Shown piece after piece: positions 10,888-48,470 of a stretch of DNA of 64,000 bases. The DNA is from Flavobacterium sp. LHD-85 (GTDB taxonomy: Bacteria; Bacteroidota; Bacteroidia; Flavobacteriales; Flavobacteriaceae). The stretch covers positions 1 through 64,000 of the forward strand of contig NZ_JAVFVR010000002.1 of NCBI RefSeq assembly GCF_030929595.1, in the 5' to 3' direction. Within the stretch, counting starts at the first letter, position 1; each line of letters begins with the position of its first letter. The notes beneath the pieces are model-generated. The model did not search any database. It was not told where the DNA came from and saw nothing but the letters and a program-made list of their open reading frames with translations. The position numbers and the translations under genes were made by a program.

Positions 10888-11862
10888 TTATTTCTGAAAT
10901 CCTAAAACTTCTCTAACTTTTGCTAGAACACCATCTGCAATTACAGAAGCTTTTGATGCGCCTTTTTTCAATAAAGCGTCAACTTCTTCTAGATTATTGA
11001 TGTAATAGTTATATTTTTCTCTTTCTGTTTTGAATTTTTCTGTAATCAATTCAAACAAAGCTTGTTTAGCGTGACCGTAACCGTAGTTTCCGCCTAAATA
11101 GTTTGCTCTCATTTGTGCAGTTTGTTCTTCGTTTGCTAACAAAGAATAAATGGCAAAAGCATTGCAAGTATTTGGATTTTTAGGTGCTTCAAGAGGAGTT
11201 GAATCTGTTTCAATACTCATTACTTGTTTGCGTAATGTTTTGTCATCCAAGAATATATTGATGATATTGTTGGCAGACTTGCTCATTTTTCCTCCGTTTG
11301 TTCCAGGAATCAGCATAATGTTTTCTTGAATTTTTGCTTCAGGAAGAACAAAAGTTTCGCCCATTTGGTGATTGAAACGAGCCGCAACATCACGAGTAAT
11401 TTCTAAATGCTGCAACTGATCTTTTCCAACAGGAACAAATTCAGCATCATACAATAATATATCCGCTGCCATTAACATCGGATAAGTGAAAAGTCCCGCG
11501 TTAACATCGTCCAAACGATCTGCTTTATCTTTGAAAGAATGAGCCAAAGTCAATCTTTGAAACGGAAAAAAACAGCTTAAATACCAAGTCAATTCAGTAG
11601 TTTGAACCACGTCAGATTGTCTGTAAAACGTCACTTTATCAGGATTTAAACCACAAGCAAGCCAAGCTGCGGCAGTGCTATAGGTGTTTTCTCTTAAAGT
11701 TTTTCCGTCTTTAATCTGAGTGATTGAATGCAAATCGGCAATAAACAAATAAGATTCATTTGCTGGATCGTTTGATAATTCGATTGCCGGAATAATTGCT
11801 CCTAATAAATTTCCTAAATGCGGTGTTCCTGTACTTTGAACACCCGTAAGTATTTTTGCCAT
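10888..11862 (-). CDS. trpS: Tryptophanyl-tRNA synthetase
   Basis: TrpS is a class I aminoacyl-tRNA synthetase that charges tRNA-Trp. The protein is 324 residues, the normal bacterial size. The HIGH-type motif is HLGN at residues 15-18 after TGVQSTGTP, and the KMSKS motif is at about 193-197 in GGKMSKS. The Trp-pocket motifs YPMLMAADILLYDA and VPVGKDQLQHLE are present. It is monocistronic. Confidence 0.97.
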   Translation of the reverse strand: MAKILTGVQSTGTPHLGNLLGAIIPAIELSNDPANESYLFIADLHSITQIKDGKTLRENTYSTAAAWLACGLNPDKVTFYRQSDVVQTTELTWYLSCFFPFQRLTLAHSFKDKADRLDDVNAGLFTYPMLMAADILLYDAEFVPVGKDQLQHLEITRDVAARFNHQMGETFVLPEAKIQENIMLIPGTNGGKMSKSANNIINIFLDDKTLRKQVMSIETDSTPLEAPKNPNTCNAFAIYSLLANEEQTAQMRANYLGGNYGYGHAKQALFELITEKFKTEREKYNYYINNLEEVDALLKKGASKASVIADGVLAKVREVLGFQK

Positions 11863-11926
11863 TCTAGTTTTTTTCTGAAATGCAAATGTCGCGATGTTTT
11901 TTTTAATTACAAAGTTTGTAGCTTTT

Positions 11927-11959
11927 TAACGCAAAGAGCGCAAAGGGTTTTCGCAAAGT
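11927..11959 (+). repeat. Left 33-bp inverted end of the GxxExxY unit
   Basis: It begins TAACGCAAAGAGCGCAAAG and ends TTTTCGCAAAGT. It also lies in the trpS upstream region, so it could affect trpS expression. Confidence 0.85.
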
Positions 11960-11987
11960 AAAGAAGTTTTATTTCTTTGAGAAATTG

Positions 11988-12008
11988 CTTTGCGATAAGT
12001 TCGCAAAG
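11988..12008. repeat. Inner palindrome, left
   Basis: CTTTGCG and CGCAAAG flank a 7-nt centre (ATAAGTT). It is 49 bp before the GxxExxY start codon. Confidence 0.8.
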
Positions 12009-12057
12009 CTTTTTATAAATATAAGAAAATATTTATAAATTTACTGTTTTTTAAATT

Positions 12058-12435
12058 ATGACAGAAAACGAAATTTCAAATATTATAATTGGACTAGCAA
12101 TTGAAATTCATAAAAAACTTGGATCAGGATTGTTAGAAAGTGTATACAAAGAATGTTTGTTTTATAAAATTAAACAGCGTGGGCTTCTTGTTGAAAAAGA
12201 AAAATCTTTGGCATTAATTTTTGAAGAAGTTAAGCTGGATTGGGGATACCGCATTGATATACTGGTGGAAAACAAGTTACTAATCGAGATAAAAAGTGTG
12301 GAATCTCTTACTGTTAATCATTTAGCATAAACATTAACCTATTTAAGACTAGGAAATTTTAAACTTGGCTTTTTAATAAATTTCAGTGAAAGGCTATTAA
12401 AAAATGGCATCAGAAGAATTGCAAATAATTTATAG
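12058..12435 (+). pseudogene. GxxExxY protein gene with in-frame nonsense codon
   Basis: GxxExxY proteins are small PD-(D/E)xK-fold, nuclease-like proteins of unknown function. The signature G24LLE27SVY30 is present and the catalytic-type residues D67, E77 and K79 are in place (YRIDILVENK, IEIK). The frame stops at TAA 12328-12330 after residue 90. The same frame then continues for 34 more codons (TLTYLRLGNFKLGFLINF and onward) to TAG at 12433-12435. The usual family reading at that point is HLAQ, so a single CAA-to-TAA change explains it. The product would be truncated after the catalytic residues, so residual activity cannot be excluded. Confidence 0.85.
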
Positions 12436-12441
12436 ATAAAG

Positions 12442-12462
12442 CTTTGTGATCTTGTTGCAAAG
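12442..12462. repeat. Inner palindrome, right
   Basis: CTTTGTGATCTTGTTGCAAAG is an imperfect palindrome similar to the one at 11988-12008. It begins 6 bp after the second stop codon of the GxxExxY gene. Confidence 0.7.
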
Positions 12463-12489
12463 CAAACTTTTAAAATAATTACTTTGAAA

Positions 12490-12522
12490 ACTTTGCGAAA
12501 ATTCTTTGCGCGCTTTGCGTTA
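12490..12522 (-). repeat. Right 33-bp inverted end of the GxxExxY unit
   Basis: Its reverse complement matches 30 of 33 bases of the left end. It reads ACTTTGCGAAAATTCTTTG on the plus strand at its left side. Confidence 0.85.
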
Positions 12523-12587
12523 GAATAAAGCTTACACTTAAAAAAATCTTGTTTAAAATTCATTTCTGTTTTCTTACATTTGGAGCT

Positions 12588-13331
12588 ATGAAAATATTTA
12601 AAATTGCTTTTTGGATTCTTTGGCGAGTTTGGTTTTATGTTTTGATGGCCATTCCAATACTCATTATGTTCCCTTTTCTGGTCGTTTCTATCCTTTCTGA
12701 GAAAGGATATCCATACTTCTTTAAAATGGCTCGCATTTGGGCTAAATTTATCCTTTTCGGAATGGGTTTCTTTTATACTGTAAAACGCGAACAAAAGCTG
12801 ATTAAAGGCAAAAGTTACATGATTGTGGCCAATCATACTTCTATGACCGATATTATGCTTACGTTGGCTTTAATTAAAAATCCTTTTGTTTTTGTTGGGA
12901 AGAAAGAGCTGGTAAAGATTCCTCTTTTTGGATTTTTCTATAAAAGAACTTGTATTCTAGTTGACAGAAGTTCGTCTAAAAGTAAAAATGAAGTTTTTAA
13001 AAGAGCGCAAAATAGATTAAATCAAGGTTTAAGTATTTGCATTTTCCCAGAGGGCGGAGTTCCAGATGACGAAAGCATTTTGCTGGATGAGTTTAAAGAT
13101 GGAGCATTCAGATTGGCGATAGATCACCAGATTCCTATCGTACCTATTGTTTATCCAGATAGTAAAGAACGTTTTTCGTATACTTTTTTGAGTGGAAGTC
13201 CTGGAAAAATGCGCGCGAGAGTTTTGCCTTTTGTAGAAACAAAAGGATTGACAAGCGACAACAGAAAAGAATTAAGAGATCGAGTTAGAAATATGATTTA
13301 TAATGGTTTAATAGATTATCAGAAGGAATAA
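12588..13331 (+). CDS. 1-acylglycerol-3-phosphate O-acyltransferase family protein
   Basis: The PlsC-type fold transfers an acyl chain to a lysophospholipid at the membrane. The protein is 247 residues from the ATG at 12588. An N-terminal hydrophobic segment (WILWRVWFYVLMAIPILIM) anchors it. The HX4D motif is NHTSMTD and the glycerol-phosphate-binding motif is FPEGG. TACATTTG at 12575-12582 looks like a -7 element ending 5 bp before this ATG, which argues against the longer frame from 12549. A second PlsC-like gene is at 52908. Which is the main phospholipid enzyme, and whether this one acylates another lipid, cannot be told. Confidence 0.85.
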   Translation: MKIFKIAFWILWRVWFYVLMAIPILIMFPFLVVSILSEKGYPYFFKMARIWAKFILFGMGFFYTVKREQKLIKGKSYMIVANHTSMTDIMLTLALIKNPFVFVGKKELVKIPLFGFFYKRTCILVDRSSSKSKNEVFKRAQNRLNQGLSICIFPEGGVPDDESILLDEFKDGAFRLAIDHQIPIVPIVYPDSKERFSYTFLSGSPGKMRARVLPFVETKGLTSDNRKELRDRVRNMIYNGLIDYQKE

Positions 13332-47449: not shown

Positions 47450-47627
47450 TTTGTTTCAGGTTTCAAGTTTGAGGTTTCAAAATCTCACGGTTAAATGTTC
47501 GCATTTCTTAGCGAACTTCACCTTTTCAATATAACTTAGCGTCCTTTGCGTAAATTCTTTGCGAACTTTGCGGTTGAATTGCCAAAGTATGTCAACTTGA
47601 AACCTGAAACTTTAAACTTGAAACAAA
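47450..47627. repeat. 178-bp element with imperfect inverted ends
   Basis: The left end 47450-47480 and the reverse complement of 47597-47627 match at 28 of 31 positions (TTTGTTTCA... to ...AGGTTTCAA). Inside, 47543-47575 (CTTTGCGTAAATTCTTTG and onward) closely resembles the right end of the GxxExxY unit. TTCGC and GCGAA form a small hairpin near 47499-47516. There is no gene inside. It fills the gap between two lipoprotein genes. Confidence 0.7.
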
Positions 47628-48324: not shown

Positions 48325-48470
48325 GACGCAAAGAAACAAAGCCGCAAAGGCACAAAGTTATACTTCATGAGGATAAACTTTGTGCCTTTGCGATTTATAC
48401 AAAAATTTTAGCGCAGCAAAAAAATAATATAACTTAGCGTCTTCGTGCCTTGGTGGCAAAAAAGAAGTAA
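48325..48470. repeat. CGCAAAG-family repeat with perfect hairpin
   Basis: CGCAAAGGCACAAAGTT (48343-48359) and its exact reverse complement (48376-48392) form a 17-bp stem. Outer parts (GACGCAAAGAAACAAAG and CTTAGCGTCTTCGTGCCTTGG) are also reverse-complementary in pattern. It fills the gap before the acetyltransferase gene and may end the DUF1579 transcript. Confidence 0.75.

Follow-up and report, generated by a model that had tools for sequence, protein, structure and literature searches.

Inverted arrays of short direct units enclose GxxExxY genes in Flavobacterium and other bacteria: a possible nuclease partner for REP-like repeats

Does the small GxxExxY gene of Flavobacterium sp. LHD-85 belong with the inverted repeats that enclose it, in the way that a RAYT gene belongs with its REP sequences? 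The unit sits between the trpS-like (minus) and plsC-like (plus) genes of the window (the whole stretch of DNA analysed, 64,000 nt; Table 1). Its outer ends (11927–11959 and 12490–12522) are inverted and identical at 30 of 33 bases, as an earlier note on this DNA had read them, and the flanks of the gene score 75 against a maximum of 39 in 200 shuffles. The starts of the three CGCAAAG units in each end are 9 and 13 bp apart, and the word is found 19 times in the window against 8.2 expected, a count reached by none of 100 shuffles. No other gene was seen in 11927–12522, in agreement with the single gene of the note. The two 21-bp palindromes that it described are present but imperfect (16/21 and 12/21 self-complementary) and lie within inner arms that form a longer but weaker inverted pair (73%) than the 36-nt outer arms returned by the repeat search (89%).

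The note had taken the gene for an intact frame of 125 codons, which it is not: an in-frame stop at codon 91 limits the open reading to 90 codons, and the protein hits both TIGR04256 and PF13366 when read through this stop. Intact relatives exist, and the dN/dS of the window copy against two relatives (0.07–0.08) is still inside the range of intact pairs, so the gene was probably broken recently. Single in-frame stops are also present in a number of GxxExxY genes elsewhere (several genomes), and nonsense loss is thus not peculiar to the window copy. Gene-less (solo) copies that the note placed near 47543–47575 and, more loosely, near 48325–48470 were both recovered, the first as an array of four units at about the same place and the second as a looser inverted set.

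Table 1. Features of the GxxExxY unit and its surroundings in the window (positions are those of the window).
Feature	Position	Strand	Basis or remark
trpS-like gene	10888–11862	minus	name from a reading of the translation
Left outer inverted repeat	11924–11959	plus	inverted-repeat search; CGCAAAG units
CGCAAAG units, left outer repeat	11930–11936, 11939–11945, 11952–11958	plus	gene-facing
Left inner, weaker inverted arm	11971–12022	plus	holds imperfect 21-bp palindrome 11988–12008 (16/21)
GxxExxY frame (TIGR04256, PF13366)	12058–12435	plus	stop inside at 12328–12330
Right inner, weaker inverted arm	12428–12479	minus	holds 12442–12462 (12/21 self-complementary)
Right outer inverted repeat	12490–12525	minus	inverted-repeat search; CGCAAAG units
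CGCAAAG units, right outer repeat	12491–12497, 12504–12510, 12513–12519	minus	gene-facing
plsC-like acyltransferase	12549–13331 (reading frame)	plus	name from a reading of the translation
Solo array, four units, no GxxExxY gene	47535–47572	minus	also at the orthologous place in G006
Second solo set, looser, of related units	48327–48455	both	inverted set

The source genome contains six full-length GxxExxY matches and one weak one. All six full-length copies lie between inverted repeats, and for each the flank score is above those of all 200 shuffles of the same flanks. The repeat words differ: those at the five other copies are CGCAGATT, ACATAG, ATATAAG and two CACGAATT-like words, and the flanks of these copies have no CGCAAAG arrays, with isolated single words at two of them (L002 and L003). 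The copies are distinct genes, 31–49% identical to the first copy, as is expected of REPtrons with one gene per repeat type. The weak match (L007; G000:C6:326533–326646) is to PF13366 and lies within a 359-aa open frame, perhaps of a larger nuclease; partial PF13366 matches like it are also found in other genomes.

GxxExxY matches are present in 50 of 61 genomes of the genus and in 75 of 148 sampled Bacteroidota genomes. The check proposed in the note, whether such repeats flank GxxExxY genes more often than other genes, was passed: 62 of 72 genes in the genus (among the matches listed) are enclosed by inverted repeats, compared with 21/524 control genes (8/129 for those bordered on each side by 80 nt or more of intergenic DNA). 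Enclosure here means a score of 29, or at least two CRCNRA[GT] units per flank, on both flanks and pointing inward. The same rule counts 27/32 genes as enclosed in a Bacteroidota sample and 46/76 across 12 phyla (the multi-phylum sample, made of the best 80 of 588 loci); a second set of controls gave 16/540 (3/130 with intergenic flanks). Genes not enclosed number 10/72 in the genus and 30/76 in this multi-phylum sample. The thresholds of 29 and 34 were chosen after the first loci had been seen and were applied equally to controls. The genus loci comprised L001, the 29 best-scoring of at least 150 matches, 40 hand-chosen regions from the other matches and the other own copies; both this selection and the multi-phylum one are biased to canonical GxxExxY members. 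In one scoring, 16 of 80 loci were left out as the gene had been missed by the gene caller.

A survey of 40 stretches of 20 kb in the genus gave scores of at least 34 for 27/39 GxxExxY genes (39 genes scored in 40 loci, interrupted copies being left out) against 6/626 other genes. Where each side had 100 nt or more of intergenic DNA, 4/123 of these other genes reached this score, one of the four being the neighbour of a GxxExxY unit. The direction of the units was counted for genes with at least 120 nt of flank. Units are present on both flanks and point inward in 39/72 genus genes and outward in 0/72; the multi-phylum values (the best 80 of 588 loci) are 39/76 and 13/76, so outward arrays are not rare in that sample. 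Enclosed genes were found in nine of the 12 phyla sampled (again the best 80 of 588 loci): Bacteroidota (24/34), Planctomycetota (6/8), Pseudomonadota (4/6), Cyanobacteriota (4/4), Ignavibacteriota (2/5), Acidobacteriota (2/4), Chloroflexota (2/4), Verrucomicrobiota (1/6) and Sumerlaeota (1/2), with 0/1 in each of Chlorobiota, Methanobacteriota and Elusimicrobiota. Carriage by phages or plasmids as a rule was rejected, with three related places in 2.9 million viral contigs (a pattern-limited scan) and eight of 72,556 plasmid records.

The arrays consist of about 3–4 direct units with words such as CGCAAAG, CACAGAG and CGCAGATT. Neighbouring unit starts are mostly 8–12 bp apart (9 and 10 being commonest). 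Every second unit lies most often 21–22 bp further on, with minor groups at 16 and 18. As 21 bp makes two helical turns, this peak suggests that units tend to be on the same side of the helix. Within a unit the left and right ends match each other better than they match any end of a homologous unit in 1781/1814 pairs at 40–60% protein identity, 274/346 pairs at 60–80% and 1/25 at 80% or above; the ends thus change jointly with time, and close orthologues still have common flanks.

Gene-less copies are dispersed in intergenic DNA. The strict CGCAAAG triple is found 12 times in the source genome, twice in the window unit itself, and gene-less inverted pairs of 157 and 176 bp are present, one of which folds as single-stranded DNA at −43.5 kcal/mol (shuffle mean −19.8). 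Across the 61 genus genomes, and counting arrays that enclose genes, there are 518 CRCWRAG doublets (30 for the reversed pattern), 693 CGCRGATT doublets (2 reversed) and 150 copies of the window's triple (0 reversed). Only one of 56 matches to five patterns falls inside a gene in 1.19 Mb (77% coding by the gene caller used), and 8 of 13 neighbouring solos within 200 nt face each other in one genome. Among the 20 genomes from which the multi-phylum loci (the best 80 of 588) come, 15 are at least 4-fold above the reversed pattern and five are near control level; examples are a Saprospiraceae genome (170 vs 1), Nostoc (75 vs 0) and Mariprofundus (77 vs 2). A run of six tandem copies of the window's triple, on one strand and ~0.8 kb long, is present at G057:C1:3270881–3271689.

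The places of the gene units are stable. For five of the six own copies, open-reading-frame comparison finds a comparable gap flanked by the same neighbours in other species; the exception among the comparisons listed is L006. Seven genomes have the trpS-site gene, and, judged by neighbour order, its orientation in G000, G006 and G057 is opposite to that in G015, G042, G051 and G004; 26 of 30 trpS loci are without a GxxExxY gene, and G008 keeps a lone left array. Scans of ~114 kb revealed six indels between G000 and G006 and seven between G000 and G015, none of them self-inverted, and a gap-by-gap comparison of four species gave no clean empty site. With one genome per species, no comparison showed either a target-site duplication or a clean empty site, and the GxxExxY gene units are diverged single copies, not multiplied near-identically. 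Stable places and the lack of a clean empty site in these comparisons make the gene unit look unlike a jumping cassette, and the mobile gene cassette proposed in the note is not borne out: the units sit at orthologous places and no target duplication was found beside those compared. The small gene-less pairs, not the gene unit, look like the multiplying part.

The occupants of an intergenic place vary. One site has CGCAGAG/CACAGAG units in G015 and CGCAAAG/CACAAAG units in G000, G006 and G008, and different repeat families, or one family with other words, occupy the same intergenic site across species. At G000:C2 91863–91987 the arms round an apparent single terminator stem are of CAAAG type in G000 and of CTAAG type in G006, and repeat families seem to swap in place in the orthologous gaps (G006, G015).

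The D, E and K of a PD-(D/E)XK core are present in all of 102 GxxExxY proteins, followed by Q in 100 and Y in 99 with the spacing of RecB/Cas4 nucleases (the Q-x3-Y motif), a core that Cas4 also has. The predicted structure (mean pLDDT 94.5) has no Foldseek match at E≤0.001, the first rows being SSO0001 and lambda-exonuclease relatives. VIA-align also places SSO0001, a Cas4, first (Z 10.0, rmsd 4.4, 101 residues), with two rows reaching Z 8 and the Cas4 Pcal_0546 at Z 6.9. Holliday-junction resolvases at Z 6–7 make a branched or hairpin substrate possible. Folds related to restriction, toxin and resolvase roles are in the VIA-align list, and these roles were set aside with nothing further in their support. 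Sequence searches for solved relatives returned none in one case and two hits at E 0.26 and 0.6 in another. A profile search (PADLOC) gave no match at E≤0.01 for three of four proteins and a weak match to Cas4 and Cas4b for the other (E=8e-5), and two of three proteins match a phage family described as CRISPR/Cas associated. The iron-sulphur site of Cas4 has four cysteines, and 46 GxxExxY proteins have a mean of 2.7, which leaves no room for such a site. Twelve orthologue pairs have dN/dS values of 0.02–0.09, and judged by these ratios GxxExxY is under strong purifying selection. Fold and residues together predict that it is a strongly conserved, Cas4-like PD-(D/E)XK nuclease.

The reading that we prefer, with the case for and against it about evenly balanced, gives GxxExxY the part of protein partner to the repeats that RAYT has for REPs, with cutting followed by repair as the process that multiplies the palindromes and keeps them uniform. 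The nuclease would bind its own array, with about one unit per helical turn and all units on a single DNA face, probably at inverted pairs that form hairpins, and the array would then be cut or trimmed. Repair from another copy would propagate these small palindromes and even out their sequences, which would leave solos and both ends of a unit with a common word. The gene unit would stay put and be inherited vertically as small gene-less pairs multiply, and the window unit would be one such member at the trpS site, its gene probably broken recently. Binding, cutting and spreading by GxxExxY are steps that we infer from these patterns.

An unlikely alternative is that GxxExxY binds the arrays without any mobility, the arrays being operators, chromosome sites or places of DNA degradation that are spread by general recombination or slippage. 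The same association data (enclosure, unit direction and the fit of words to the protein tree) would follow, strong purifying selection and stable places fit a host function, and tandem array runs such as that in G057 are in keeping with it; however, the invariant catalytic residues argue for cutting, and tens of dispersed intergenic copies require some spreading process.

It is quite unlikely that the repeats are independent and that GxxExxY genes are passengers that merely settle in large palindromes. Such landing sites would account for the different repeat families at one site and for the place of the L072 gene, where four other species have gene-less ATATAAG pairs with no duplication visible. 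They would also account for a second kind of enclosed gene. TIGR02436 (four-helix-bundle) genes are present in 60/61 genus genomes and have flank scores of at least 29 in 18/28 cases with 300-nt flanks and 16/27 with 250-nt flanks (L232–L261; two of 30 loci left out as truncated). Their inverted tandem-unit words are CTAAG, CAAAG and TTAGAC; CTAAG triples number 19 in 1.19 Mb (0 for the reversed pattern), and the TTAGAC word is not dispersed above its control (2 vs 12). As these genes are unrelated to GxxExxY, the ends alone are no proof of a nuclease role.

Against the passenger reading, the word type tracks the protein tree. For 145 labelled genes there are ten changes, whereas 200 shuffles averaged 37.4 and never fell below 32, and the commonest type, split as CGC versus CAC, changes 11 times for 92 genes (29.3 in shuffles). 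CGCAAAG is therefore not the general GxxExxY repeat that the note had supposed, as word types go with GxxExxY clades. The words in a genome also follow its genes. Nine genomes with a CGCAGATT-type gene have 13–99 copies of the CGCAGATT word and the 41 other gene-bearing genomes 0–35 (p=4e-6), word types being known near-completely in 13 genomes and for some genes only in the others; the contrast is much weaker among genomes of at least 4.6 Mb (nine with 13–99, five with 2–35). The seven genomes with the trpS-site gene have 12, 9, 6, 29, 22, 18 and 1 copies of the window's triple, and the 54 other genomes at most 15, with a median of 0 (p=1e-5; the trpS site was read at 30 loci). The p values of these word-specific comparisons ignore kinship.

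The word-specific tests are stronger than the general link between solos and gene number. Solos of two words number 0–3 in the 11 genomes without GxxExxY and have a median of 9.5 in the 50 with the gene (p=2e-4). The Spearman correlation of solos with GxxExxY copy number is 0.64 (0.49 with genome size removed), and this link weakens on correction: subtraction of two hits per gene copy, which over-corrects, gives 0.39 (p=0.002), or 0.11 with genome size removed (p=0.39). A tree-aware test of solos against the gene could draw on three pairs and was powerless; another, cut at four copies, leaned the opposite way and was no more powerful.

Very unlikely is an element that acts at the RNA level, in the manner of 23S rRNA intervening sequences: its ends would pair in the transcript, and processing by RNase III would make the insertion harmless. 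The window unit folds well as RNA (−178 kcal/mol vs −116 in 20 shuffles), and a Coxiella intervening sequence, as described in the available text of PMC4990558, has inverted repeats and tandem heptamers before a small four-helix-bundle ORF. The RNA-stem idea is weakened by a wobble-direction test despite the good fold, as mismatches between ends show no G-U preference (151 vs 148), and it leaves the periodic direct units and clade-specific words unexplained.

That these are ordinary REPs moved by Y1 transposases (RAYT) is highly improbable: Y1 matches are present in 41/61 genus genomes, but many solos occur in genomes without one (104 in G004, 54 in G054), which argues against RAYT as driver, Y1 number does not predict solos with genome size removed (0.18, p=0.17; for TIGR02436 0.22, not significant), and among eight Y1 loci, one without a reading frame, two have repeat-like flanks, of other sequences. 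One Y1 gene (L338, in G023) has TCCCGTAGGGATG flanks (score 47), and another (L334, C20:32478–32837 of the source genome) has a CCTCGAGG-type palindrome (score 28).

Returning to the preferred partnership of nuclease and repeats, a broader form of it can be put forward more tentatively, with the balance tipping somewhat against it: an independent, second kind of REP system spread over at least nine phyla, in which a minimal Cas4-like nuclease would recognise arrays of direct units spaced by ~10 bp and spread and homogenise palindromes by cutting and break repair, with TIGR02436 genes and the 23S rRNA intervening sequences as a parallel branch. If true, this class would account for many unexplained bacterial repeats of CACAGAG/CGCAAAG type and would give an origin to repeat families of tens to more than 100 copies per genome in several phyla. 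Transposases would then not be the only enzymes behind REP-like systems, the one proposed here being related to the nuclease that prepares DNA for CRISPR arrays. The GxxExxY family is common but has no known function, and the link to repeats supplies a testable substrate, with the flanks of each gene naming its own candidate DNA target. A survey of REPs has two Flavobacterium species in its table, and the words 'transposase' and 'nuclease' are absent from its main text as available (PMC12306157); no published report of an association between GxxExxY and repeats was found in the open-access papers searched.

Among known systems, MITEs and insertion sequences also have inverted ends, and the gene-less pairs of 157 and 176 bp resemble their gene-less derivatives; the GxxExxY unit differs in having no transposase, in the absence of a target duplication from the comparisons made and in gene units that are not multiplied near-identically. 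TIGR02436 genes and 23S rRNA intervening sequences have a like plan, a single small gene flanked by inverted ends made of short tandem units, but the protein is unrelated, the words are other ones, and intervening sequences lie inside rRNA. The likeness points to a broader class of small genes with tandem-unit ends. Nucleases of Cas4/RecB type share the fold, the D-ExK core with Q and Y and a weak profile match (one of four proteins), whereas GxxExxY is ~125 residues long, has too few cysteines and stands as a single gene; the domain has been reported, in the available text of PMC8934634, where a cas4 gene went unrecognised.

REP/RAYT systems are closest in arrangement. These are described, in the available text of PMC3116915 and PMC6006769, as distinct single-copy genes, each with its own repeat and adjoining inverted repeats, and with gene-less inverted pairs scattered between genes. 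GxxExxY genes are likewise distinct, flanked by inverted repeats of their own family, and accompanied by gene-less copies dispersed in intergenic DNA. The enzymes and repeats differ: RAYT is a Y1/HUH transposase and the gene enclosed here (TIGR04256/PF13366) a predicted Cas4-like PD-(D/E)XK nuclease, and a REP is one short hairpin whereas the GxxExxY repeat is an array of direct units. With no RAYT-type enzyme between the repeats, the GxxExxY system is not itself REP/RAYT; as an analogy, which is how the earlier note drew it, the comparison is well supported, since the enclosure test was passed (62/72 vs 21/524) and solo copies exist.
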